Positions 4,246 through 21,327 of a stretch of DNA of 21,327 nt are shown here, in pieces. The notes beneath the pieces are model-generated. The model ran no database searches. It was not told the origin of the DNA and saw nothing but the letters and a program-made list of their open reading frames with translations. Position numbers and translations under genes: made by a program. Source of the DNA: a virus; IMG/VR virus record IMGVR_UViG_3300032249_000299, positions 1 through 21,327 of that record; one strand, given 5' to 3'. Positions within the stretch are counted from its first letter, which is position 1, and every line of letters begins with the position of its first letter.

Positions 4246-6207
4246 ATGGAGCATCAACACCCCCAGCCCGGTGACATGCGGCGTGCGGCTTTTCAGCCGG
4301 CGACGCTTAACCCCGACGCTCGAACCATCGAGCTGACCTGGACGACTGGCGCCAGGGGGCGGCGTGCATCCTGGTTCGATGGCGACTGGTACGAGGAGCT
4401 CGATATGAGCTCTGGCGCCGTCCGCCTGGACCGGCTGAACAATGGCGCATCGCTGTTGAACAGCCATCAATCCGCCGACCTATCCAACATCCTCGGGGTG
4501 GTGGAAAAGGCATGGATTGAAAACGGAGAAGGCCGAGCTCGCGTGCGCTTTTCGGAGCGTGCAGATGTAGAGCCGATCTTCCGTGATGTGGCCAGCGGCA
4601 TTATCCGCAACGTCTCGGTTGGCTATCAGGTCCATAGGTGGTCTGATCCGATCCGTGGCGCGGACAAAGAACCGCCGACCTACCGCGCACTGGACTGGGA
4701 GCCAATGGAGCTCAGCCTGGTGGGTGTGCCATTTGACGCGAAAGCGCAAACCCGTAATCAACCAATTAACCCGGACGCTTCCATGCCCGACAACCTGAAT
4801 CAACAGGCCGGAGGTGATCCGGCAATTATCGAGACCACCCGTGCTCTCGACCCCACCACACCCCCCGAACCTGTGCCCGCTGTGGATACTGAACTGCAGC
4901 GCACAAACGCTGATCTACGCCGCGAGCGTGACCTGCTACGCCTCGGCCAGGATGCTGGCCTGAGCACTGATCAAACTGATGAGCTGATCCGCTCTGGCAA
5001 GACCGTCATGGAGTGCAGCCGCGAGGCCGTGCGCCTGATGCGTTTGCGCTTGGAAAAAGGCGACGTTCGCGCCGAGGATGGCCCTGCCGCCCTTGGCCAT
5101 CCTGCCCGCGTCGAAGTCACCCGCGACTCTGGCGACACCCTGCTACGCGGAATCTCCGCCGGCCTAGAAGCCCGCATCCGCCCCGGCGCACTGAAAGGCG
5201 AAGCCGCCGAGCTTGGCCGCGAGTATCGCAGCTACACCCTGCTGGAGCTGGCCCGTCAGTATCTGGAGAGCCGGGGCGTCAACACCCGCGGCATGAGCAA
5301 GACCGAGCTGGTCACCCGTGGTTTCCACAGCACCAGCGACTTCCCGCTGCTGTTCTCCAACCTGGCCGGCAAGACCTTGGATGCCGCCTATGAGGAAGAG
5401 CCCCACACCTGGCGCCCGCTTGCCCGTCAGCGCAACCTGCCTGATTTCAAGCAGGCCGCCGATTTGATTGTGGCTGGTGCGCTCACCCCCGAGCTACTGC
5501 TTGAAGGTGGTGAATATAAAGCCGGCACCCTGACCGAAGGCCAACACACCTGGCGCCTTGCTACTTATGCCCGCAAGGTCACTGTTACCCGCCAGGCCAT
5601 CATTAACGACGATCTCTCCGCACTGGAGCGCGTTCCCGAAATGCTGGGCCGCGGCTTCCGCCGCCTTGAGAGCAACATTGTCTGGGCGTTGATCACAGGT
5701 AACGCCACTACCTCGGTTGACAGCCTGTCACTGTTCAACACCGCGCACAACAACAGCTCGGCGCAGACGATCAACACCGCCGGCCTGAACGCTGCCAAAA
5801 AGGCAATGCGTAAGCAGACCGATCTAGCTGGGAACACAATTAACCTGACCCCCAGCTACATGATGGTGCCAACAGATCTGGAGGCTACGGCGCTTCAGTT
5901 CCTGTTCCCGAATGGCTTCATGGCAAACACCAGGACCGGTGAAAACGGCCCTGTGACGGTTCAGAGCGCTGGCATCGAGCTAATCGTTGAGCCTCGCCTC
6001 GACGGTTCTGCTACTACCTGGTACTTGGCCGCATCACCTGGCTCTGTCGAGGGCATTGTCTACGGCTACCTAGCCGGCGAAGAAGGCCCCACGGTAACCA
6101 CCAACGAGAAGCGCGATCCTGACGGCGTTGAGCTGCTGGCCCGCTTTGATTTTGGCGCAGCCGTTAAGGACTACCGCGGCTTCTTCCGCGCTGCTGCGGC
6201 TTCCTGA
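4246..6207 (+). CDS. Prohead protease / scaffold / major capsid protein fusion
   Basis: One continuous frame of 653 residues covers three head functions. Residues about 10-170 match the HK97-type prohead protease fold: LLNSHQ (His74), IIRNVSVGYQV (Ser124) and EPMELSLVGVPFD at 152-164 are the usual signature segments. Residues about 212-275 are charged and probably helical (ELQRTNADLRRERDLLRLGQ), fitting a scaffold or delta-domain. Residues about 325-653 resemble the Mu gpT-like major capsid family, with FSNLAGKTLDAAYEEEP, ARKVTVTRQAIINDDLSALE and a C-terminal ARFDFGAAVKDYRGF. After self-cleavage the capsid part would form the shell. Fusions of this kind are known in phages and are annotated as protease/major capsid fusions. 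The ATG at 4246 lacks a clear ribosome-binding site. An internal ATG at 4783 (Met180) falls exactly at the protease-scaffold junction and might give a shorter product. Confidence 0.92.
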   Translation: MEHQHPQPGDMRRAAFQPATLNPDARTIELTWTTGARGRRASWFDGDWYEELDMSSGAVRLDRLNNGASLLNSHQSADLSNILGVVEKAWIENGEGRARVRFSERADVEPIFRDVASGIIRNVSVGYQVHRWSDPIRGADKEPPTYRALDWEPMELSLVGVPFDAKAQTRNQPINPDASMPDNLNQQAGGDPAIIETTRALDPTTPPEPVPAVDTELQRTNADLRRERDLLRLGQDAGLSTDQTDELIRSGKTVMECSREAVRLMRLRLEKGDVRAEDGPAALGHPARVEVTRDSGDTLLRGISAGLEARIRPGALKGEAAELGREYRSYTLLELARQYLESRGVNTRGMSKTELVTRGFHSTSDFPLLFSNLAGKTLDAAYEEEPHTWRPLARQRNLPDFKQAADLIVAGALTPELLLEGGEYKAGTLTEGQHTWRLATYARKVTVTRQAIINDDLSALERVPEMLGRGFRRLESNIVWALITGNATTSVDSLSLFNTAHNNSSAQTINTAGLNAAKKAMRKQTDLAGNTINLTPSYMMVPTDLEATALQFLFPNGFMANTRTGENGPVTVQSAGIELIVEPRLDGSATTWYLAASPGSVEGIVYGYLAGEEGPTVTTNEKRDPDGVELLARFDFGAAVKDYRGFFRAAAAS

Positions 6208-6996: not shown

Positions 6997-9900
6997 ATGG
7001 CTCAAACAACGATCACGGGACTACCGAACGCTTCGATACCGCTGAGCGGTACGGAGCGTGTGCCGATGGATCAGGGCGGCGTAACGGTTGATGTAAGCGC
7101 GTTAGATATTGCGAATCTGTCAGGCCCTGCAATTGCCGCTGCTGTAGCTGGTAAAGAGAACGCCGGCACGGCTGCTGCTGCGGTTGCTGCGCTGATCACA
7201 AAGCTGCGCAGGGCACGAAAGGTTTATGTGTCGCTGGAAGGCAACGACTTAAATAATGGCACCAGCGAAGCTGAGCCACTGCGAACGCTGCGTGCTGCTG
7301 CGCTTGCTGCAGAGCCTGGCGATGTGGTGTTTGTTGATCCTGGCACTTATGTCGAGTCGATTCTCCCAATTCGTTGGAAATATGATGTAACTATTTTTGG
7401 CTCAGGGTTGCGTAGCACAACTGTGCAGCCTGCAGCCGGTCAAGAGTTTAATGATATTTTCAAAGTTGATTCCGGTTTTTGGTGCTGGGGGATTTCGTTT
7501 GCTAGCCACCAAGCTGACAGTGTTTTTCAGTCTTGGGCAATTGATTTTGACGAGCTAGCTGATAATACTGCACGTGGCGCAGTAGGACTTGGCGCGTTTA
7601 TTCTGAAGTCGCCGTATATCCAGAACTGCACCAGTATCACCGCCGAGGATGATGCGGGCACGGCTGGTTCTGCCTCCACGGGGAACACAGGCGGCGGCAT
7701 TCGTGTTGATGGCAGCAAGTGCGCTTTGAATAGCCCCATCCGGTCGATGGTGGTTGATAGCTATACCCAGGTAAACCTAGGCGGCCCCGGCTGCCTGGTG
7801 CTGAACGATGGCTATGCGCAGCTCGTCAGTTTCTTCGGAACGTTCTGCACGTACCACGTCAGGACGGAGAGTGGTGGCCAGGTCAACCTGAGCGGTGGCG
7901 GCACTACGGACTTTGGCACTTATGGCCTGATGGCTGATGGCTATTCGCCCAAGCCGCTCTACACCGGCTCAGCTCGCATTGCAAATTACGGCGCAGCAAG
8001 GCTAGAGAAAACCGTCACGATCGACACCGCCACCGATCTGTTCGGCTGCGTCGCGCACGGGCTATTGACTGGCGATCAGGTGACGCTTAAGGCCAGCCAA
8101 GGGGCGCTGCCTACGGGACTAGCAGCAAACACCACTTATTTCGTGATCGCCAGCGGATTGACTGTTGATGCGTTCAAGGTGAGTGCCACTGCCGGCGGCA
8201 CGGCGCTCGACATGAGCGGGAGCGCAACAGGCACTTATCAATTCATCCGCCAGGGCGTCACCGAGCTGGACGTGATCAGCTTCTCCGCCAACCGCCTAGG
8301 ACGGCAGATCAAGTATCCAAGCGCCGGCAGCCTGGGCAGCCCTGGTAACTCGGTGCAGATCACGGCGCGAGGCGGCAGCACTGCTGGCTCAACGTTCACG
8401 GTGACGCTGGCTACAAGCACGATCGGCCATGAGTACGTAGGCGGCGGCGCGGTAACGGTGGGCGGTGTTTCGTATCCGGTCACCAGCGCCAGCTACAACA
8501 AGACCACAGGCGTAACGGTGCTGACGGCGACGGGATATGCGCCAACGATCGGCGCGAGCGTCACGCTGACGGGGCTTTCGTTTATCTGCGATTCAGCATC
8601 ACGCCCAAATGCAGGGCAGCTGATGTTCCCGCAGCTGGTGTTCCCACGTAACGCCAGCACTGGCGCCGCCGAGGCCAAGACGTTTGCCTATACCAGGACT
8701 GGAGACTTTACGCTTACCTATACCGAGGCTGCATCAGCTTCTGGGCCTGAGCATGAGTATGTAAGCGGCGGTACGGCAACAATTGGCGGCACGGATTACG
8801 GCGTTGCCAATGCGGTCTACAACAAGGCTACGGGCGTAGTAACGCTCACTACCAGGGTGCAACTGCCTGCGGGCAATGGAAACATCACCGTTAATGGGCT
8901 GGCGTTCATCTGCCCGACGAGCGCTTATATCGTCACCAGCAGCATCCCGATCAATGCCAGCGGTTCTCCGGTGGCCAATACCGATCCAACCAGGGCTGGT
9001 TATCGGGTGGTTTTCTACTCGGGTGTGAATGGTGGCATGAAAGATGCGGTAGCGGCAGGCCAGAAAATGGACTTCCGCAACCGTTCGCAGATTTCAGCGC
9101 CAAGCCACACGTTTGAGTACGTGGGTAGTGGTTTGAACTATGACGCCCTGCCCTGGAACGGCGGCGTCGGCATTGAAGAAAATGCGATTGTTGAAACCAA
9201 TAATGGCCGAGTTTATTCGTCAAACACAAATGAAAAAGGTGATTTTAAGGTTGGCACTCAATTCAGTGTTGATGGAACGACTGGCAGTGTCACGATCAAC
9301 ACCGATGAGTTTAACCTGTCAGGACTAAACTTTATTGGCCCATTCAGCCGCAACGGTGGCATCAGCTCCGTTGGTGTGCAGCTACGGGAGATCAGCAATA
9401 ACGCCGCGCTGATTGCTTCAACCGGCGGACCTGATGGCAACACCGTCCCGACGCAGTTTGCAGTTAAGAGCTACGCGGAAGACAAGTTCCTGCAGAACGT
9501 GACGGTGACAGCGGGCCTACCGTTGACGATCACGGATACCAGCAGTCAAGACGGGCAGGGGTACTGGACGCGCACCAGGCGGCTAGAGCTGGCGGTGAAT
9601 ACTGCCAACGGTCTAGCGCGGCTGGACGGTAGCGGACTGGTGCCGTCGTCGCTGCTACCGAGCTACGTCGATGACGTTCTGGAGTACGCCAATCTGGCGG
9701 GCTTCCCGGCAACTGGCGAGAGCGGCAAAATCTATGTTGCACTGGACACCAACAAAACCTACCGCTGGAGCGGCTCGACTTACGTCGAGATCAGCCCCAG
9801 CCCTGGCAGTACCGACTCGGTGAGCGAGGGTAGCGTCAATCTGTACTACACCAACGCCAGGGCGCGTAATGCGATCTCGGTGAGTGGATCGCTGAGCTAC

Positions 9901-10362
9901 GACGCTGCGACTGGGGTAATTTCCTATACAGCGTCTGGCAGCGGCAGCAGCTCTCAACTCGCCGCCCTTGGCTTAAACGTCGCCCCTGCATCTGGCTTTG
10001 AGCTGACCCTGGGCGGCAGCACCATTCAGTTGGTGACAACGGTAACTGCTGCCAGTGGTGTTTATACGTTGGACGTAACAGCGGCTAATGAGTTCGTCAC
10101 TGCTGCTGCAATAGCTGGGGCAACGACAATTAACCTGTCAAATCTGACAAGTTTGCCTGCTGGGTATCGGTGGCGGGGGGTGCTGAGTTTTGCTTATACA
10201 AGCGGAGTGGTGTCGTTCTTTACGGGGAACACGGGCTACACGGTGAAATGGGATGGCGGCACGGCACCGACTCTGACAGCCAGCGATCTGGAAACCCTGG
10301 TGATAACGGTCACAGGTGGCGTGAGCGTGATTGAAGTCATGGCACAACAGGGGAGGGCATAG
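6997..10362 (+). CDS. Large beta-rich fibre or spike-like virion protein
   Basis: A 1121-residue protein, likely a virion surface protein that binds or degrades host surface polymers. Residues 1-40 (ITGLPNASIPLSGTERVPMD) look like an N-terminal module often seen in phage fibre proteins. Residues about 76-330 start with VYVSLEGNDLNNGTSEAEPL and GDVVFVDPGTYVESI, the usual opening of a right-handed parallel beta-helix (pectin-lyase-like). Around 354 is HGLLTGDQVTL, a small module common in cyanophage virion proteins. Two diverged repeats begin with HEYVGGG near 478 and HEYVSGG near 586, each ending with LSFIC or LAFIC. Near 705-770 comes HTFEYVGSGLNYDALPWNGG, and near 943-961 SEGSVNLYYTNARARNAIS, both reminiscent from memory of cyanophage structural proteins. 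The C-terminal 150 residues are beta-rich. No catalytic residues can be named. Gene position, between connector and tail terminator, is unusual. Confidence 0.75.
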   Translation: MAQTTITGLPNASIPLSGTERVPMDQGGVTVDVSALDIANLSGPAIAAAVAGKENAGTAAAAVAALITKLRRARKVYVSLEGNDLNNGTSEAEPLRTLRAAALAAEPGDVVFVDPGTYVESILPIRWKYDVTIFGSGLRSTTVQPAAGQEFNDIFKVDSGFWCWGISFASHQADSVFQSWAIDFDELADNTARGAVGLGAFILKSPYIQNCTSITAEDDAGTAGSASTGNTGGGIRVDGSKCALNSPIRSMVVDSYTQVNLGGPGCLVLNDGYAQLVSFFGTFCTYHVRTESGGQVNLSGGGTTDFGTYGLMADGYSPKPLYTGSARIANYGAARLEKTVTIDTATDLFGCVAHGLLTGDQVTLKASQGALPTGLAANTTYFVIASGLTVDAFKVSATAGGTALDMSGSATGTYQFIRQGVTELDVISFSANRLGRQIKYPSAGSLGSPGNSVQITARGGSTAGSTFTVTLATSTIGHEYVGGGAVTVGGVSYPVTSASYNKTTGVTVLTATGYAPTIGASVTLTGLSFICDSASRPNAGQLMFPQLVFPRNASTGAAEAKTFAYTRTGDFTLTYTEAASASGPEHEYVSGGTATIGGTDYGVANAVYNKATGVVTLTTRVQLPAGNGNITVNGLAFICPTSAYIVTSSIPINASGSPVANTDPTRAGYRVVFYSGVNGGMKDAVAAGQKMDFRNRSQISAPSHTFEYVGSGLNYDALPWNGGVGIEENAIVETNNGRVYSSNTNEKGDFKVGTQFSVDGTTGSVTINTDEFNLSGLNFIGPFSRNGGISSVGVQLREISNNAALIASTGGPDGNTVPTQFAVKSYAEDKFLQNVTVTAGLPLTITDTSSQDGQGYWTRTRRLELAVNTANGLARLDGSGLVPSSLLPSYVDDVLEYANLAGFPATGESGKIYVALDTNKTYRWSGSTYVEISPSPGSTDSVSEGSVNLYYTNARARNAISVSGSLSYDAATGVISYTASGSGSSSQLAALGLNVAPASGFELTLGGSTIQLVTTVTAASGVYTLDVTAANEFVTAAAIAGATTINLSNLTSLPAGYRWRGVLSFAYTSGVVSFFTGNTGYTVKWDGGTAPTLTASDLETLVITVTGGVSVIEVMAQQGRA

Positions 10363-10364
10363 AG

Positions 10365-11744
10365 ATGATTGGCGGACGTAGTGCGTTGTTGACGGCGAGT
10401 GGTGGTGTAAGCCCATACGGGAACTGGACGGGAAATTATTCGGATGTTTCGTTGTTGTTGAGGGGAGGCGTTGGACCTGGCCCGCTGGGAATTGGAGACG
10501 AAAGCCCAACGCCAAAAACATTGACCAATTTTGGAGGCGTTTCAATAAATACAACAACTTTTAAGTATGGAGCCAACGCATTAACTTTTTCATATGGCGT
10601 CAACTATTTAACGGCATCAAGTAGTGATTTTGCTTTTGGTACAGGCGATTACACAATTGAAGCATGGGTGAGACCTGAGTCTACTGCCGCTTATCAAAAT
10701 ATATTCTCAAGCAGACAAAGCGCAACAAACGACGCAAACGCAATATCTCTTGTACTTGTCGGCGGAACTACTCTATGGGTGTATTCAAATGGAATATTAG
10801 CGCAAGGCGGGTTGTTGGCTATTAATGGCTCTTTTTATCATGTTGCCGTAGCAAGGCAAGGATCTTCATTGCGGTTATTTGTTGATGGTCAGCAGGTTGG
10901 CACAACTGAGACCAATACTCAAAATATTACGCAGCAAAATGTAGGAATCGGCGCAAATTTCAACGGGAGCGAAAATCTTGGCGCCACCATAGACGATCTG
11001 CGAGTAACAAAAGGGATTGCTAGATATACTTCTAACTATACTCCGTCTACAGCTCAGCTGCCTGCCAACATCACTGACGACCCTAACTACGGCAGCGTCT
11101 CACTGTTGCTGAGGGGAGGGGCGGCAACTCTAGTGCCTGCTGACGAAAGTTCAGCACCAAAGGTAATTACAGTTTCTGGTAATGCAGGAATAAGCACAAC
11201 AACGTTTAAATATGGCGGAAGTGCGTTAGTAGCCGGAACTTCACCAAATTTTACATGGGGGTCTAATAGAATCCAGATGCCGGCAAGCTCTGCGTTTGCT
11301 TACGGCACAGCTGATTTTACAGTTGAAGCATGGATTTATCCAACTGTTCTTGGTGACGGAATTTTTTGGAACCAGGCCGCTTCTGGTGTTAATTACTTTG
11401 TATGCCTAACGGGAGCAGACGGAAGGCCCGCGTTTATATTTGCAACGTCTGGTGGAGGCACGTCAGTTTATGGCCCTGCTATTACATTAAACCAATGGAG
11501 CCACGTTGCAATTGTTAGGTCTTCTGGGCGAGCAACAGTGTATTCCAATGGAGTGGGGGGAATCGCTGTTACCTGCACTCAGGATTTCTCGGATACAACT
11601 TACATACCCACTATAGGCAGTTACACTCATAGTGCGGGCTCGTTGCCGTTTTCAGGGTTGATTGATGATTTAAGAGTAACAAATGGAATCGCCCGCTACA
11701 AAAAAGACTTCCTACCACCCCCAGCCCAACTACCCGCGATTTAA
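10365..11744 (+). CDS. Tandem LamG-like (concanavalin-type) domain protein
   Basis: A 459-residue protein made of two similar halves, each a LamG/concanavalin A-like jelly roll. Half one (about 25-236) begins DVSLLLRGGV and half two (about 240-458) begins SVSLLLRGGA. Both then have TTFKYG, a F-FGTGDYTIEAWVRP or FAYGTADFTVEAWIYP segment, and end IDDLRVTKGIARYTSNYTP or IDDLRVTNGIARYKKDFLP. LamG-like domains bind sugars or proteins, so a receptor-binding or capsid/tail decoration role is likely. The start ATG follows the upstream stop by two bases and has a GGGGAGG ribosome-binding site. DNA here is much poorer in G and C than neighbouring genes: 70 of 180 bases (39%) at 10501-10680, against 38 of 60 at 1441-1500. 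That suggests a separate origin. The exact virion location is unknown. Confidence 0.8.
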   Translation: MIGGRSALLTASGGVSPYGNWTGNYSDVSLLLRGGVGPGPLGIGDESPTPKTLTNFGGVSINTTTFKYGANALTFSYGVNYLTASSSDFAFGTGDYTIEAWVRPESTAAYQNIFSSRQSATNDANAISLVLVGGTTLWVYSNGILAQGGLLAINGSFYHVAVARQGSSLRLFVDGQQVGTTETNTQNITQQNVGIGANFNGSENLGATIDDLRVTKGIARYTSNYTPSTAQLPANITDDPNYGSVSLLLRGGAATLVPADESSAPKVITVSGNAGISTTTFKYGGSALVAGTSPNFTWGSNRIQMPASSAFAYGTADFTVEAWIYPTVLGDGIFWNQAASGVNYFVCLTGADGRPAFIFATSGGGTSVYGPAITLNQWSHVAIVRSSGRATVYSNGVGGIAVTCTQDFSDTTYIPTIGSYTHSAGSLPFSGLIDDLRVTNGIARYKKDFLPPPAQLPAI

Positions 11745-14213: not shown

Positions 14214-14240
14214 TGTGAATGCACTTCCCCAGTGAGAGCT

Positions 14241-14600
14241 ATGGCATTTGTTCTTAAGCAGTCTGACAGCTTTACGTGGCCCGTTGCTTTTGACGTGCCC
14301 ACTGATGGCGGGCGACATGAGCGGCAGACCTTTGATGGTGAATTCAAGCGGCTGCCACAAAGCAAGATCGGGCCGATGGTTGCAGAGCTGCAAAAGGTAG
14401 AAGACCTGAGCGAGCTGGAGCGCATCACCGAGATCGCTAAGGAGCTGCTGGTTGGATGGTCAGGCGTCAATGATGACAGCGGCAAAGATGTGCCATTCAG
14501 TCAGAACGCACTAGATCAGTTGCTAGAGGTGCCGTTCCTTGCTGTCGCTGTCGTGAAGGCATACATGGACAGCATCAAGGGAGCCAAAAGAAAAAACTGA
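14241..14600 (+). CDS. G: Tail assembly chaperone G-like
   Basis: A 119-residue protein encoded before the tape measure gene in the position of lambda gpG. It reads as a compact alpha/beta domain: QSDSFTWPVAFDVPTDGG, then a strand-helix region containing FDGEFKRLPQSKIG, and an acidic helical C-terminus (VEDLSELERITEIAKELL). Such chaperones coat the tape measure and recruit tube subunits; they are not part of the finished virion in lambda. The chosen start is ATG at 14241 with GAGAG just upstream; a GTG at 14232 is less likely. The last codons are AAA-AGA-AAA-AAC-TGA, which form a -1 slippery site, so a fraction of ribosomes should produce a longer GT protein. Confidence 0.85.
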   Translation: MAFVLKQSDSFTWPVAFDVPTDGGRHERQTFDGEFKRLPQSKIGPMVAELQKVEDLSELERITEIAKELLVGWSGVNDDSGKDVPFSQNALDQLLEVPFLAVAVVKAYMDSIKGAKRKN

Positions 14601-14929
14601 TAGGTGCCGCTGAGCACTGGGCCGGCGGCACTGTGGTTGATGAGTCTGCAGCTGATGCAGCGGCGCTTGGCATTCAAATTGAGCCAACGCCGCCTAAGGC
14701 TGAGCACTTTGAGGTGTGGGAAGAAAACTGGTTGGCAGTGGAGATGTTTCTTCGGGTTCAGACCCAGTGGCGCTCTGCAATGGGCGGCCTACTGGGCCTG
14801 GACTATGGAGCGGTGGAATGGCTCTTTAACCTGTATGCAGTGGCAGCGGAGGACCAGCGCTCCATGCTCGAAGATCTCCAGATTATGGAAGCCACGGTTA
14901 TTGCAACTGTGAACAATCGGGACGATTGA
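14241..14929 (+). CDS. GT: Tail assembly chaperone GT fusion made by -1 frameshift
   Basis: The frame reads normally from 14241 through AAC at 14595-14597, slips back one base and continues from 14597 with CTG ATA GGT to TGA at 14927-14929. The predicted product has about 229 residues. The joined segment reads LIGAAEHWAGGTVVDESAAD, which continues sensibly without any start codon of its own. The T part contains FEVWEENWLAVEMFLRVQTQ, WRSAMGG and LGLDYGAVEW, the pattern of the DUF1799 family (W-x-x-N-W, TQWR, GG-x-x-GLDY). In lambda the T domain binds tail-tube subunits while G binds the tape measure, so the ratio set by frameshifting matters. The T stop lies one base before the tape measure ATG. 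Confidence 0.88.
14591..14631 (+). promoter_or_regulatory. -1 ribosomal frameshift signal: slippery heptamer and stem-loop
   Basis: The heptamer A AAA AAC occupies 14591-14597 in the correct phase (X XXY YYZ) of the G frame. It is followed directly by the G stop codon TGA at 14598-14600. Six bases after the heptamer, GTGCCGC (14604-14610) pairs perfectly with GCGGCAC (14625-14631); the stem can grow inward by a U-G and a G-C pair. Spacing and stem strength match known stimulators of -1 frameshifting. Lambda itself uses a G GGA AAG type site, so this heptamer is different and closer to the highly efficient A AAA AAC/AAG class. Confidence 0.9.
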
Positions 14930-14930
14930 C

Positions 14931-17165
14931 ATGGCAATGAATAGCGACACCGTTCTGCGCATTAAGGCAGAGGTTCAGGGTGAAAACAATATTCGCAGAT
15001 TGGGCGGCTCCCTGAAGGGATTGCAAGGCCAGGCAAAGAGCGCGGCAATGAGCTTCACCGCGCTAAAAGGTGCGGTGGCTGGATTCGGCGCGGCAATCGC
15101 TGGCAGCGCCATTGTGGGCGGACTGGGGGCAATCGTAAAGAAATCTATTGATGCAGGGGATGAGCTGTTCAACCTGCAGGCAAAGACCGGCATTGCAGCC
15201 AGTGCGCTGATTGGCCTAGGCAATGCAGCCAAGCTGGCGGACGTTGATCAAGCCACGCTAAGCAAATTCCTGACAAGGCTAAGCGTCAATCTCGTCAAGG
15301 CAGCAGAGGGCAACGACGAACTAGCTCGGAAGTTCAAGGCGCTTGGTGTTGGGGTCAAGGATGCCAACGACCAGGTGGTGCCAGCGGATAGAGCCCTTAA
15401 GCAGATCGCTGATCGCTTTGCCGACATGCCAGACGGCGCGCAAAAGGCGGCCGCAGCCGTGGCATTGTTTGGCAAGTCCGGCGCGGATCTTATCCCGCTG
15501 CTGAATGAAGGCGCGGCGAGCATGGATAAGTTCACCTACAAGGTGGGCGAGGACTTTGCGGCGCGTTCTGATCTGTTCAATGACACAATCACCGAGCTGG
15601 GCATCAAGACCCAAGGATTCGGGCTGGAGCTGACCGATGCGTTGCTGCCGGCGCTGCAGACGATCCTTGAGGTGTTTGGCGATCTGTTTGACACTGATCA
15701 GGATTGGACGGCGCTGTTTAAGGTGATTGAGGGCGTGATTCGCGGCATTGCGGTTGCGATCTACACCGTGGTTAAAGCGGTTGACATCCTGATCAAAAAC
15801 ATCGTTGCAGCAGCGCAGGCGGCAGGCCAAGCATTTGCGGGCGATTTTGGCGGTGCATTCAACACCATCACCAACCGTGTAAGCAGTGGCTTTGCAGAAG
15901 CGCAGCAAGCTATCAAAGACCTGAACAAGCTTGCCTTTGGGTCTGCGGCATCACCCGGCACCGGTCGGCGCACAGGTGGGCGTGGGATGGAGGTGGACAC
16001 CAGCGCAGCTGATGGCGATGCTGCGGCTGCAGCACGGCGCGCTGCAGCCGATGCCAAGCGAACAGCAGCAGATGCCAAGAGTGCTGCAGATGAACAGCAG
16101 CGGCTGCTAGAAAAGCGCGCCAGTCTCACCCAGCAGGCAATCAGCTTGCAGAAGGATCTGCGCAACAGCGTGGCGGATGTGACGGCCGCCTATAAGGGCC
16201 TGGGCGCCACGCGGACGGAGCAGCTGTTCCTGGATCGCAATAAAGCCATCACCGAGAACGACCGGCAGATCAAGCAGCTCACGCTCGACGTGGGGACGCT
16301 GGAGCAAGAAGTTAACGCGGCTAACGGCTCGCTTAACATCAAGCCGTTTGAGGAACTGATTAACCAGCTGTCGCGGCTCAACGTGGACGTGGCCGACAAG
16401 ACCTATCAAAGCGGCCTTAAGGAGCTGACCCAGCAGCAAGCCGACGCAATGACCGAGCTGCGCCGCGAGTCGGGCCTGCTCACCCAGGATCAGGAACGCC
16501 AGCTCGACATCAACGAAAAGCTGGCGCAGATCCAGCGCGAGATGCCCGAGTTTTACGCCGCGCAGAAGGAGGAAATCACTGCGCTTGTCACAGCATCCGC
16601 CGGCCTGACTGAAGCGCAGGAGCGCAACAAGCAGCTTGTCATGGGCATTGCCGATACGATCGGCGGCGGCCTCACTTCAGCGTTTGATCTGCTGCTTGAG
16701 GGCACCGATAACTGGGGCAACAGCCTGCGCGAGATTGCCGCCGGCGTGCTGAAGGACATTGCCCGGCAGCTGCTGCAGATCATGGTAATTGCGCCAATCG
16801 TTAAGGGCATCACCAAGGCCTTTGGGTTTGCAGATGGCGGGATTATGTCGCCCTCAGGCCCGATGCCGCTGAAGACCTACGCGCGCGGCGGCATCGCCAA
16901 TAGCCCCCAGCTGGCCCTGTATGGGGAGGGCTCAATGAATGAGGCGTATGTCCCGCTACCTGATGGCCGGCGTATCCCAGTGGCGATGCAGGGCGGCAGG
17001 GGCACCACCGCCAGCACCACCAGCGTGGTAGTAAACGTGGACGCCTCGGGCAACAGCAAAGTATCAGGTGACGGCGGCCAGGCTGAGCAGTTGGGCCGGG
17101 TGGTGAGTCAAGTGGTGCAGGCTGAACTGATCCGCCAGAAACGCCCTGGAGGCCTGCTGGCATGA
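14931..17165 (+). CDS. H: Tape measure protein
   Basis: A 744-residue protein that sets tail length and is ejected with the DNA. At roughly 0.15 nm per residue, a common rule for helical tape measures, the tail would be at most about 110 nm; this is an estimate. The N-terminal 70 residues include an Ala/Gly-rich hydrophobic stretch (SFTALKGAVAGFGAAIAGSA). Residues about 70-220 form a soluble helical region (LADVDQATLSKFLTRLSVNL). A second hydrophobic zone lies near 263-300 (VIRGIAVAIYTVVKAVDILI). Residues about 361-400 are an Ala-rich coiled coil (AAAARRAAADAKRTAADAKS). The end has LKDIARQLLQIMVIAPIVKG and FADGGIMSPSGPMPLKTYAR, the usual lambda-type C-terminal motif. The ATG at 14931 follows the GT stop by one base, and the gene overlaps the M-type gene by four bases. 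Confidence 0.93.
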   Translation: MAMNSDTVLRIKAEVQGENNIRRLGGSLKGLQGQAKSAAMSFTALKGAVAGFGAAIAGSAIVGGLGAIVKKSIDAGDELFNLQAKTGIAASALIGLGNAAKLADVDQATLSKFLTRLSVNLVKAAEGNDELARKFKALGVGVKDANDQVVPADRALKQIADRFADMPDGAQKAAAAVALFGKSGADLIPLLNEGAASMDKFTYKVGEDFAARSDLFNDTITELGIKTQGFGLELTDALLPALQTILEVFGDLFDTDQDWTALFKVIEGVIRGIAVAIYTVVKAVDILIKNIVAAAQAAGQAFAGDFGGAFNTITNRVSSGFAEAQQAIKDLNKLAFGSAASPGTGRRTGGRGMEVDTSAADGDAAAAARRAAADAKRTAADAKSAADEQQRLLEKRASLTQQAISLQKDLRNSVADVTAAYKGLGATRTEQLFLDRNKAITENDRQIKQLTLDVGTLEQEVNAANGSLNIKPFEELINQLSRLNVDVADKTYQSGLKELTQQQADAMTELRRESGLLTQDQERQLDINEKLAQIQREMPEFYAAQKEEITALVTASAGLTEAQERNKQLVMGIADTIGGGLTSAFDLLLEGTDNWGNSLREIAAGVLKDIARQLLQIMVIAPIVKGITKAFGFADGGIMSPSGPMPLKTYARGGIANSPQLALYGEGSMNEAYVPLPDGRRIPVAMQGGRGTTASTTSVVVNVDASGNSKVSGDGGQAEQLGRVVSQVVQAELIRQKRPGGLLA

Positions 17166-17860
17166 CCTTCACCTTCACCCCTGACTTCCCCTGCACTGAG
17201 AGCAGCAAACCACGGGTCAACCGGATGGCGGTGCCGAGCTATGAGCAGCGGGCAACGTTCGGCATCAACCCGCAGGAAGACAAGTGGGATCTCACGTTCT
17301 CAGCGCTGACCGCTACCACCAGGAACGGGATCTTCGCGTACCTAGAGGCGCGTCGCGGCGCTGTGCCGTTCACCTGGGTCACGCCCCTTGGTGAGACTGC
17401 ATCGTGGGTGTGCGGCGACTGGAGCCCGGTCCTAGAGACCTGCAACTACAACTCAATCCGCGCATCATTTGAGCTGCAGTACGTGGCGGGCGGACCGAAC
17501 CTGGCGACCCCGGCAACGCCAACGGCATCGTTTGCCTATGTGCCTGATTTTACCGCTGAGATGAGCTACGAAGGCCAGGCGAAGGTGATCACGTACGGCG
17601 AGGGCTACGCCCAGCGCTTCACCATGGGGCTACAGGCCCAGGCGGAATCCTGGCGGCTGCAGTTTCGCAACCGCAGCAATGCCGAGCGCGCATTGATCCG
17701 CAACTACCTACGCGGCGCTCGCGGTGTGGCGTCATTCCAATGGACCGACCCGCGCAGTGGCGTAGCAGGCCGGTATGTATGCGCGGAATGGTCGATAGAG
17801 TATCGGAGGTTCAACAACAACAACATCGACGCAACGTTCCGGCGTGTGTTTGAGCCCTGA
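17162..17860 (+). CDS. M: Minor tail protein M-like, internally duplicated
   Basis: Two copies of a gpM-like domain lie in one 232-residue protein. Copy one, about 3-107, has FTPDFP, YEQRATFGINPQEDKWDLTF, YLEARRG, FTWVTP and WVCGDWS. Copy two, about 123-230, has YVPDFT, EGYAQRFTMGLQAQAESWRL, YLRGARG, FQWTDP and YVCAEWS. A short linker (GPNLATPATPT) joins them. In lambda, gpM is a single-domain protein of about 109 residues at the tip, between the tape measure and gpL. A duplicated form could replace a ring of single-domain subunits with half as many double ones. The ATG at 17162 forms an ATGA overlap with the tape measure stop, and the gene overlaps the next by one base. Duplicated members of this family may exist elsewhere; I cannot check. 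Confidence 0.83.
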   Translation: MTFTFTPDFPCTESSKPRVNRMAVPSYEQRATFGINPQEDKWDLTFSALTATTRNGIFAYLEARRGAVPFTWVTPLGETASWVCGDWSPVLETCNYNSIRASFELQYVAGGPNLATPATPTASFAYVPDFTAEMSYEGQAKVITYGEGYAQRFTMGLQAQAESWRLQFRNRSNAERALIRNYLRGARGVASFQWTDPRSGVAGRYVCAEWSIEYRRFNNNNIDATFRRVFEP

Positions 17861-19413
17861 TGGCCGTTCCAGTTTCTGAGCTTCAATCAGTAGCACCCAG
17901 CGCGATTATCGAGCTGTTTCAGCTTGAGCTGAATACAGCGCAGCATGGAATAAATGAGACATATTATTTTCATGCTGGCCCTAGCTTAAACGCCAACGGA
18001 GAGATTATCTGGGCTGGCCAGTCCTACATGAGATGGCCAATCGAGGCTACGGGTTTTGAATACAGCGGCGGCCAGCTGCCACGACCAACGCTGCGGGTGG
18101 CCAATGTGATGGCCACGATCACGGCAATCATGCTAACCCTACCTAACGGACTGGAGGGGGCGAAGGTAACACGTATCCGCACACTGGCGAGGTATTTAGA
18201 CGGTGCCAATTTTCCTGACAATGAAGAAACTACATACCTAACAACGCTAAACGGACTTCAACTAATAACACTTGACAATAGTGAGCTTACCGCAATCTCG
18301 GGCGGTGGCAGTACATACCTAACAACGCTAAGCGGACTGGAATTATTAACGCTTGACGGCAGGAGGATTAGTTCATTCTTAATCGACACAAACCCATCAG
18401 GCACGGCAGACCCTACCGCAGAGTTTCCGCGTGAGATATTTTATATTGACCGCAAAGCAGCAGAGAACATAGAGGCCGTAGAGTTTGAATTGTGCGCGAT
18501 ATTCGATCTTGCTGGTGTACGCGCGCCAAAGCGTCAGTGCATCGGCAACATCTGCCAATGGGCGTATCGAGGCGCCGAATGCACATACGCCGGCAATGCT
18601 TACTTTGACATCAACGATAACCCTGTGGCTACACTGGCGCAGGATGTATGCGGTAAGCGGCTGAGCAGCTGCGAGATCAGGTTTCAGCAGCAACGGCGAA
18701 CAGGCAGCGTCACCGCCGGCAGCAACATCATCACGCTGGATCAGGCGGGATCATTCAGCACCGGCGACCCGGTGACAGGGTTTGGCCTACCAGCTGGCAC
18801 CACGGTGTCAAGCGTTGCCGGCAACCTAGTAACCGTCAGTCAGAACGCAACGGCTACCACGTCTATATCAAGAGCTGGCGCGCTCCAGAGGGATTACCAG
18901 ACAATCACAATGGCCAGCACAGCAGGCATCGTTCCAGGAATGTCTGCAGCAGGCGCCTATCTGCCAGCCAATGCGCAGGTAATCAGCGTAGCCGGCAACA
19001 CAGTGACCCTAGGCTCACCAGCCGATCCAGCTCAATTCTTTACGGCAATCGCCGCAGCTGCTGGGAATTTATCGGGTAACCGGTTGTCGGTGGAGTTCTC
19101 TGCCTCATTAAGCGGCCTTTTCACCGTTGGCAGTTTAATTGCAAGCGATGTATTGCCAGTTACTGCAAGGGCGCAAATCCTAGGCTTTAGGGATATGAGG
19201 CTTGCGTTTGGCAAAAATGTCTTTAGATACAGGGTGGCAGACATAAACATTGCCGCTTCTAATACTGGCTCGTACCTTTGGACTGTTTACAATGAAACGG
19301 CGCCAGTAGCAGCAACGTATACATTTAACGCGACCAGTCGTAACTACACTTTCAAGGCTGATGCTGTCATTCCTTATGGCAGCTTCCCAGGTATCGGGAC
19401 ATTCTTCACATGA
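17860..19413 (+). CDS. L: Minor tail protein L-like, iron-sulphur tip protein with insertions
   Basis: A 517-residue protein, about twice the length of lambda gpL (232). The N-terminal domain runs from [20 protein letters not shown] to about residue 120. The cysteine motif follows: [19 protein letters not shown] and later [14 protein letters not shown]. Cys232, Cys241, Cys264 and Cys271 are spaced 9, 23 and 7 apart, which from memory equals the [4Fe-4S] ligand spacing of lambda gpL; Cys227 and Cys212 are extra. Two insertions explain the size. The first, about 122-175, contains the repeat [28 protein letters not shown]. The second, about 275-500, is beta-rich and separates the cysteine motif from the terminal [10 protein letters not shown], which normally follows closely (PFGGFP type). 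The product belongs in the tail tip beneath the tape measure. Confidence 0.85.
18231..18275 (+). repeat. Direct repeat copy 1 inside the L-type gene
   Basis: The stretch encodes [14 protein letters not shown]. Its first 27 bases (18231-18257) match copy two at 18312-18338 with two differences, and the rest is recognisably similar. The period is 81 bases, or 27 codons, so the reading frame is kept. The region is AT-rich compared with the rest of the gene (25 of 60 G or C at 18241-18300). Confidence 0.8.
18312..18356 (+). repeat. Direct repeat copy 2 inside the L-type gene
   Basis: This copy encodes [14 protein letters not shown], with the shared core TACATACCTAACAACGCTAA identical to copy one. 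It lies at the end of the first insertion of the L-type protein, separated from copy one by a Ser/Gly-rich linker (AISGGGS). Such in-frame repeats can expand or shrink by slippage or recombination. Confidence 0.8.
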
Positions 19414-20117
19414 CTTGGCAAGCAGCAGCACTAGCCCACGCCAAAGCCGAGGCACCGCGTGAGGCGTGCGGGCTGGTGGTGGTGGTCAAAGGCCGCGAGC
19501 GTTACTGGCCATGCCGGAACCTAGCAACAGAGCCTGAGCAGTTCTTCCGGCTCTCTGATGCTGACTGGGAGGCGGCCGAAGACACCGGCGAAGTGCTGGC
19601 GATATTTCACAGCCACCCAACCACCAACGCCGAGCCATCACCAGCTGACCTGACCGCTTGTGAAAGCTCAGGGATGCCCTGGCATATCGTCAACCCTGCA
19701 ACGGAGCAATGGGCCAGCTGTGAGCCCAGCGGCTACCAGGCGCCGCTGCTAGGCCGTCGATGGGTCTGGGCGGTGCATGATTGCTGGACACTGGCGCGTG
19801 ATTGGTACGCCGAGCGGGGAATCATGCTGCGCGACTGGGAGCGGTGCCCATCGCCAGAGGAGTTCCAAGCGGCGCCATATTTCGATCGCTGCTGGCGCGA
19901 GACGGGGTTCCGCGAGCTGAGCGAAGATCAAGGCCTGGAGCCCGGTGATCTGCTGTTGATGGCGATCAGCAGCCCCGGCCTGAATCACTGCGCCGTGTAT
20001 CTGGGCGAGCAAATGGTGATGCATCATCTGCAGGGGCGGTTGTCTAGCCGGGATATGTATAGCGGCTGGCTCATAGGCTGTACGGGAAGGAGGCTGCGCC
20101 ATGCTGCGGAAGATTAA
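19410..20117 (+). CDS. K: Tail tip protein K-like: JAMM (Mov34) plus NlpC/P60 peptidase
   Basis: A 235-residue protein with two enzyme-like domains, as in lambda gpK. Residues 1-100 form a JAB/MPN domain: Glu18, then [14 protein letters not shown] at 67-80 gives His67, His69, Ser77 and Asp80, the complete zinc-binding JAMM set. Residues about 115-225 form an NlpC/P60 domain: Cys125 in [13 protein letters not shown], His193 in [10 protein letters not shown] and His205/206 in MVMHHLQGR are candidate catalytic residues. The NlpC/P60 part could cut peptidoglycan peptides during DNA entry; the JAMM part may process a tail protein. All key residues appear present, so both domains could be active. 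The ATG at 19410 overlaps the L-type stop by four bases, and the end overlaps the I-type gene by 17 bases. Confidence 0.93.
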
Positions 20118-20649
20118 GCTCTACGGCAGGCTGGCAAAATTCATTGGCAAGCGTGTTTTACGCGCTGATGTTGCCACCACTGCTGAGGCGGTGCGGTTCC
20201 TGCTGGCGAACTGGCCGCAGCTGGAGGGGCACATGAGCGATCAGCATTATCGGGTGAGCGTGGGTGGTTGGGAGCTCTGCGAAGACGAGCTAGGCCATCC
20301 GATCGGGCAGCAGGAAATAAAATTCGTGCCGGTGGTATCAGGTGCCGGCGCTACCGGGCGGATCATTGCGGGGATTGCGCTGGTCGCCGTTGGCCTGGCC
20401 CTGGGCGTGCAGCTGCTGGTTGGCGTCGGCGCGTCCCTGGTCCTCGGCGGCGTCGCTGAGCTGCTCACCCCCACGCCAAAAATTCCCCAGGGTCCAGACT
20501 CGCAGGACGATCCGCGCAAGTCCTATTCATTCAGCTCGATTCAGAACACCAGCCGCGCTGGAACACCGGTGCCGATCGTTTACGGCCGCTGCATTGTCGG
20601 CAGCGTGGTGGTTAGCGGCGGCGTTGACACCGTGCAGGTGGTCGGATGA
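20101..20649 (+). CDS. I: Tail assembly protein I-like
   Basis: A 182-residue protein in the gpI position, between K and J. Residues 1-80 resemble a ubiquitin-like fold ([20 protein letters not shown], then [17 protein letters not shown] and EIKFVPVV). A hydrophobic Gly/Ala-rich segment follows at about 83-120 ([20 protein letters not shown]), then a Pro-rich linker ([20 protein letters not shown]) and a C-terminal [20 protein letters not shown], characteristic of this family. In lambda, gpI is needed for tip assembly with J and K but is not found in the mature virion. The start lies inside the K-type gene; the stop overlaps the J-type start by four bases (ATGA). Confidence 0.93.
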
Positions 20650-21327
20650 TCAGCGGCGCAGGCGGATCGGGCGGCAAAGGCGGCGGCAGTAGCGCCCGCA
20701 CGCCAACGACAGCACGCGACAGCCTCGATTCAACGCAGTATGCCCAGCTAATTGACCTGATCTCAGAGGGCGAGATTGACGGGCTGGTTAATGGCCTGCA
20801 ATCAATCTATCTTGATGATACACCGATTCAGAATTTAGACGGGTCGTTTAATTTTCAGAACGTCGAAGTATATCTGCGCAACGGTACGCAGAATCAAGAA
20901 GTAATACCATTTGCCGGCGCAATTGAAGATGAGCGCTTTGTAGGCGTCACGGTACGCAATGACGGCCCGGTGACGCGCAGGGTCACAGACGCGCAAACCG
21001 AAGCGGCAAGAATCACAATCACGGTGCCAAGGCTGGAACGCATCACCAATGAAGGTGACACTGTAGGCGAAAACGTTAGGCTGCAAATCAGCGTTCAATA
21101 CAACGGCGGCGGCTTCAACGTCGTTATTGATGACACGATTTCAGGCCGTACTGGTGACGCCTATCAGCGTGATTATCTGGTGAGCCTGACGGGCGCCTTC
21201 CCGGTTGATATTCGCCTAACCAGGATCACGCCTGACAGCACAGACCTACGGCTAGCTAATGAGTTCTCTTGGTCAAGTTATACAGAAATCATTTACGCCA
21301 AGATGAACTATGCCAACTCAGCATTGG
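20646..21327 (+). CDS. J: Tail tip attachment protein J-like, N-terminal part
   Basis: The open frame begins at ATG 20646 and runs off the window after about 227 codons without a stop. The first 20 residues are Gly/Ser-rich (GAGGSGGKGGGSSARTPTTA). Residues about 35-61 read LIDLISEGEIDGLVNG and IYLDDTPIQ, the hallmark opening of lambda gpJ-like central tail fibre proteins. Further family features are VEVYLRNGTQNQEVIPF, an ARITITVPRLERI strand, and SGRTGDAYQRDYLVSL. Full-length members usually exceed 1000 residues, so most of the gene lies outside. In lambda-type phages the C-terminus decides host receptor binding, which cannot be judged here. The ATGA overlap with the I-type gene argues for this start. 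Confidence 0.93.
   Translation, partial: MISGAGGSGGKGGGSSARTPTTARDSLDSTQYAQLIDLISEGEIDGLVNGLQSIYLDDTPIQNLDGSFNFQNVEVYLRNGTQNQEVIPFAGAIEDERFVGVTVRNDGPVTRRVTDAQTEAARITITVPRLERITNEGDTVGENVRLQISVQYNGGGFNVVIDDTISGRTGDAYQRDYLVSLTGAFPVDIRLTRITPDSTDLRLANEFSWSSYTEIIYAKMNYANSAL

Follow-up and report, generated by a model that had tools for sequence, protein, structure and literature searches.

Why should a tail-tip protein be twice the length of its relatives, and what would the extra half do? The question is raised by one gene in a 21,327-nucleotide stretch of viral DNA (IMG/VR record IMGVR_UViG_3300032249_000299, positions 1 to 21,327; hereafter the window). The product of this gene is a hub protein of the lambda gpL family (PF05100/TIGR01600). 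It scores 174.2 bits against PF05100 (cut-off 25; E 2.8e-51) and 203.5 bits against the equivalog model TIGR01600 (cut-off 70.75), and Foldseek matches it to lambda gpL (8iyk_L) with an E-value of 1.9e-11. Pfam, NCBIfam, PHROGs and fold all agree on this assignment for the 517-residue product. The gene order of the window, tape measure-M-L-K-I-J, is also that expected for the lambda gpL family (Table 1).

An earlier interpretation of the letters alone (the sequence-only reading) described, for an open reading frame whose coordinates and length proved exact, an L-type protein doubled in size by two insertions. Indeed, the protein has 517 residues against 240 in its sister L006. An artefact or frameshift as the origin of the enlarged protein is ruled out by the single open frame, by purifying selection and by the many independent contigs. 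We call the two sites concerned A (between the domains) and C (between the fourth ligand cysteine, Cys4, and the C-terminus); a third, B, is the loop between Cys2 and Cys3. Lambda gpL has the same HDI-like N-terminal domain, cysteine spacing and M-L-K-I-J gene order as the window protein, but it has only 232 residues and no insert at site B or C.

Table 1. Features of the L gene and its neighbours (positions in the window)
Feature	Position	Strand	Details
gpM-like distal tail gene	17162..17860	+	two tandem PF05939 domains, 32% identical (tandem duplication)
L-type tail-tip hub gene	17860..19413	+	517 aa; PF05100 E 2.8e-51, TIGR01600, Foldseek to lambda gpL
N-terminal attachment (HDI-like) domain	17860..18213	+	residues 1-118; alignment; phmmer to lambda gpL and F2-pyocin hub
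Insertion A	18220..18393	+	~55 extra aa, duplicated YLTTLxGLxLxTLD unit; absent from L002-L006
Fe-S domain core	18394..18675	+	residues 179-272; Cys codons and conservation in alignment
Fe-S ligand Cys codons	18553-18555, 18580-18582, 18649-18651, 18670-18672	+	Cys232/241/264/271
Block C	18685..19368	+	residues ~276-503; three beta repeats and C-terminal strands
Repeat R1	18706..18870	+	residues 283-337; hhalign R1-R2 probability 97.7
Repeat R2	18871..19023	+	residues 338-388; hhalign R2-R3 probability 94.7
Repeat R3, hypervariable	19024..19263	+	residues 389-468; 35% identity to L002
Hypervariable DNA valley inside block C	18751..19350	+	identity to L002 0.71/0.61/0.39/0.63 per 150 bp; immediate flanks 0.88-0.95
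Terminal motif closing canonical L proteins	19372..19410	+	13 residues, includes PYGSFPGIG; alignment
gpK-like JAB + NlpC/P60 protein	19410..20117	+	PF14464, PF00877; phrog_30
gpI-like tail assembly/plug protein	20101..20649	+	phrog_32 E 2.2e-47
gpJ-like central fibre protein, N-terminal part	20646..21327	+	lambda gpJ 3-217 E 5e-39; cut by contig end

Ligands and modules of the iron-sulphur end

The protein contains cysteines at positions 212, 227, 232, 241, 264 and 271. The last four keep the 9/23/7 spacing of lambda, where Cys173, Cys182, Cys205 and Cys212 surround the cluster density in the structure (PMC10721106). This pattern is not chance, because 188 of 241 distinct homologues keep a Cys2-Cys3 distance of 23; 19 have an insert there. 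Judged by its ligands, the enlarged protein would be expected to hold an iron-sulphur cluster. A short-loop variant with 9/9/7 spacing, in which Cys2 and Cys3 are 9 apart, occurs in 20 of the 241 (including L039, L041, L043, L044, L047, L052 and L059). In two relatives (L026:3983-4972 and L112:3980-4558) the alignment lacks the entire iron-sulphur segment (canonical residues 177-230), and these are possible candidates for cluster-free hubs, as in phage Jersey. L026 keeps an FPSIG-like end and has an insert of about 138 residues at site A; we dropped cupredoxin as the identity of this insert, which has no Pfam match and resembles only phage fibre and baseplate families.

Insertion A of the window protein, near residues 121-178, adds 55 residues relative to L006. 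It is a tandem duplication at the DNA level, with two 46-nt copies (18231-18276 and 18312-18357) that are 87% identical and 81 nt apart. It is modelled with very low confidence (pLDDT < 50). A different short repeat, of LLxED type, occupies site A in about 20 relatives.

Site B takes modules of several kinds. A beta repeat, HGLxxGDxVYLxF, is present there once in L082, twice in L081 and three times in L024 and L075, and coiled-coil-like stalks surround a beta stretch in L056, L259, L262, L271 and S-CBS4. Two relatives (L241:2578-4224 and L204:2578-4191) have a B_lectin domain in the Cys2-Cys3 loop that scores slightly below the Pfam curated cut-off; the L241 insert matches pyocin L1, a mannose-type lectin, with an E-value of 1.3e-15, and both inserts have QxDxNxVxY motifs, which are lectin motifs (PMC6240691). 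A third group of L relatives has in common N-terminal modules of about 64 residues. The cultured Synechococcus cyanosiphovirus S-CBS4 also has an L protein doubled by an insert (gp36, 465 residues; P0002; L197:2965-4362). Its insert lies in the Cys2-Cys3 loop, combines a coiled-coil-like stalk with a beta head and is unrelated to block C. The protein is annotated merely as a phage tail protein.

Block C: fold, distribution and variation

A beta-rich block of about 225 residues had been placed between Cys4 and the terminal PYGSFPGIG, and its position, its size (measured against L006) and its beta content all proved right. Folded alone in silico, block C reaches a pLDDT of 91.3 and a pTM of 0.76. 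The model has three five-strand units of about 60 residues each, followed by three more strands, and by this model block C is one autonomous repeated beta domain. The suggestion that the tip may carry an extra exposed domain stands as far as the domain goes; the domain is probably exposed, but the whole-chain model (pTM 0.49) leaves the orientation of the block free.

The block as a whole has no counterpart among solved structures; the lone convincing match is that of a single repeat unit to 8eci, a protein of Arthrobacter phage Bridgette that decorates the head and is no tail hub. One unit superposes on 8eci_1 at 2.3-2.4 Å over 62-63 columns with 35% identity. With E-values of 0.66 in Foldseek and 0.11 in phmmer, the relationship is no more than suggestive. 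A sequence profile of block C returned nothing from the PDB at E 5, and the block has no Pfam family and no recognised sugar-binding motif; the PF01453 B_lectin domain and QxDxNxVxY motifs of L204 and L241 are missing from it. In BFVD, the model of the whole L protein weakly matches several structural and fibre proteins of cyanophages, matches for which the L core may account in part. A profile search of the window's own open reading frames was empty, ruling out a copy from another protein of the same phage.

How widespread is the block? Among at least 150 confirmed relatives from the block scan we fetched 80 loci, and in all 80 the block lies within the L reading frame after Cys4. To avoid bias, a second scan used as its query only the stretch that runs from site A to site B. 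The nearest complete distinct L reading frames (n=65) comprise 28 with block C alone, 13 with a site-B insert alone, 1 with both and 20 with neither; the script left three unparsed, which by eye are one with both, one with B and one with neither. Block C is therefore present in 29 of the 65 (about 45%), always in the same exact place and with a segment length of 215-245 residues. By contrast, a second clade around L108 has no insert at site B (0/60) or at site C (0/59 parsed there). The idea that family members generally carry the block thus fails for the wider family (0/60 in the L108-like clade; 206 residues in the Pfam model; 232 in lambda); of the 65 nearest relatives, 29 do carry it. On these counts block C is a subfamily trait and not a peculiarity of the window phage. 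Searches by tblastn with three different blocks found it in none of 50,697 cultured-phage records, and it was not found in the bacterial genomes scanned. On a tree of core sequences the block C label needs about 10 changes, of which well-supported branches force at least 4, and the B label needs about 14-15. These counts are rough, since the tree was built quickly and contains several long branches, and in them gain, loss and transfer look alike.

The three repeats do not vary equally. Relative to L002, DNA identity is about 0.8-0.99 across M, the L core, K, I and J (the site A insertion apart). Across R2 and R3 it falls to 0.71, 0.61, 0.39 and 0.63 in consecutive 150-bp windows, and it recovers beyond them. 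In close pairs, repeat R1 and the core are conserved to about the same degree, but R3 is only 35% identical to its counterpart in L002, against 89-93% in the core. Synonymous distance follows the same course, from a dS of 0.38-0.66 in the core to 2.0 in R2 and saturation in R3; where a dS estimate is possible, omega never reaches 0.4. Because the synonymous distance jumps too, the divergence of R3 reflects replacement of a segment and not point selection, and at the level of sequence comparison it is no sign of positive selection for binding. The trio L072, L073 and L074 has the same dip in identity over R3, and the pairs L002/L003, L003/L004 and L077/L078 have no such dip. A second sharp drop (0.51-0.65) occurs in L072, L073, L074, L077 and L078 about 2400 nt past the start of L, apparently in gene I, so R3 is not the sole variable spot.

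A proposed role for block C at the tail tip

What role would suit the family, architecture, distribution and variability that we have shown for L proteins with block C? The closest precedents are the hubs of the gene transfer agent RcGTA (gp13) and of roseophage R4C. Both are iron-sulphur hubs with an extra beta domain in the iron-sulphur domain, an oligosaccharide-binding domain (PMC7296036, PMC10276861), and both match the core of the window protein in Foldseek. The window protein works like a hub of this type but is not one of them. In RcGTA and R4C the added domain splits the ion-binding segments, a position comparable to site B, whereas block C follows Cys4 and leaves an ordinary Cys2-Cys3 distance of 23. 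Moreover, block C has no similarity in sequence or fold to the oligosaccharide-binding domain of the GTA. A study of the LSH1 and Jersey hubs has called the gpL C-terminus hypervariable (PMC13243795); it describes a truncated C-terminus in Jersey and another fold in LSH1, but neither block C nor a lectin insert nor repeat modules. An extra domain in an iron-sulphur hub and a hypervariable gpL C-terminus are thus already known. None of the papers we searched describes the block family, its position behind Cys4, the insertion of a lectin or the multi-port pattern.

We lean towards the view that block C is an accessory domain, probably one that binds the cell surface, displayed in three copies per tip on a modular platform. 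The L core would keep its normal place under the ring of the distal tail protein gpM, with its four ligands retained and, by analogy, three subunits per tip. An autonomous beta domain would have entered the chain behind the fourth ligand and ahead of the C-terminal motif. Block C would then project from the tip, because the iron-sulphur domain of lambda sits on the tip's outer surface; by this analogy it is probably exposed. R1 and R2 would form a relatively constant part, and R3 would vary through exchange by recombination. The likeliest task of the projecting block would be to touch the host surface, probably its glycans, as an accessory contact before gpJ triggers ejection. We single out this role because of the RcGTA and R4C precedent, the relatives that carry a lectin and the hypervariability of the distal repeat. 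That the iron-sulphur end serves as a display platform is suggested by L proteins of the clade that load the Cys2-Cys3 loop and the N-terminus with other modules, one of them a lectin.

The 8eci match suggests decoration as much as adhesion, and the alternative that survives best, although we think it fairly unlikely, is that block C has no ligand of its own and stabilises the tip or lengthens its cone, in the manner of a capsid decoration protein or of the FNIII domains in gpJ. A long-lived block of nearly constant length, with R1 conserved about as well as the core, would suit such a part. Against this, R3 is hypervariable where the core, K, I and J are about 90% identical, and lectins sit at the sister site B. 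Nor does block C substitute for FNIII-A, since the gpJ of the window aligns across that region and retains it.

Variable R3 repeats would also be expected if block C were a docking platform for side fibres or a further accessory protein that itself varies, with R3 changing to fit its partner. Related phages have their fibres attached at the tip, and the window encodes large fibre/LamG-like proteins (6997-11744). However, we identified no partner, most loci are too short to follow co-variation between R3 and fibre genes, and one relative has a complete lectin in the same L protein; we consider docking improbable. It is very hard to believe that block C is tolerated cargo of little function, moved by recombination between permissive loops: the label changes on the core tree would fit, but purifying selection, constant length and the persistence of one homologous family across deep splits do not.

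Accessory adhesion by block C could be part of a larger pattern, which we put forward tentatively. In this large clade of uncultured aquatic siphophages, L may serve host recognition alongside the fibres and gpJ, as a modular platform with four fixed ports (the N-terminus, the inter-domain site A, the Cys2-Cys3 loop and the stretch from Cys4 to the C-terminus) at which adhesins are swapped by recombination, block C being the commonest and helping to set host range. The function of the gpL iron-sulphur domain has been described as unresolved (PMC10721106). A base for swappable exposed modules would give it one concrete role, that of a rigid surface anchor, and, in uncultured siphophages that probably infect cyanobacteria, would add a previously unlisted place where host range may be determined. 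A natural series of sequences, with and without the block and with different R3 alleles, is at hand for testing the platform role.

Neighbouring genes and host

The doubled M gene of the window recurs in L002, L003, L045, L050, L056, L065, L078 and L098, independently of inserts in L, and M carries a large insert in L090 and probably in L079. A tie between block C and the duplicated M is ruled out in both directions: ten relatives with the block lack a doubled M (L005, L060, L072, L073, L076, L077, L085, L088, L095 and L107), and in L050 and L065 M is doubled but L has no inserts.

The host of the window phage, an uncultured aquatic phage, is likely to be a picocyanobacterium, to judge from the phage's gene sequences. 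TerL is 67% identical to that of Synechococcus phage S-CBS3 and 65% to that of S-CBS1, and the tape measure protein matches cyanosiphoviruses in parts. Just 5' of the tape measure gene lie two consecutive small reading frames (14232-14600 and 14633-14929), arranged as a lambda G/GT-type frameshift pair would be. Further upstream, the prohead protease and the major capsid protein are apparently fused in one reading frame for 653 residues (4246-6207), which matches annotated fusion proteins in tblastn.
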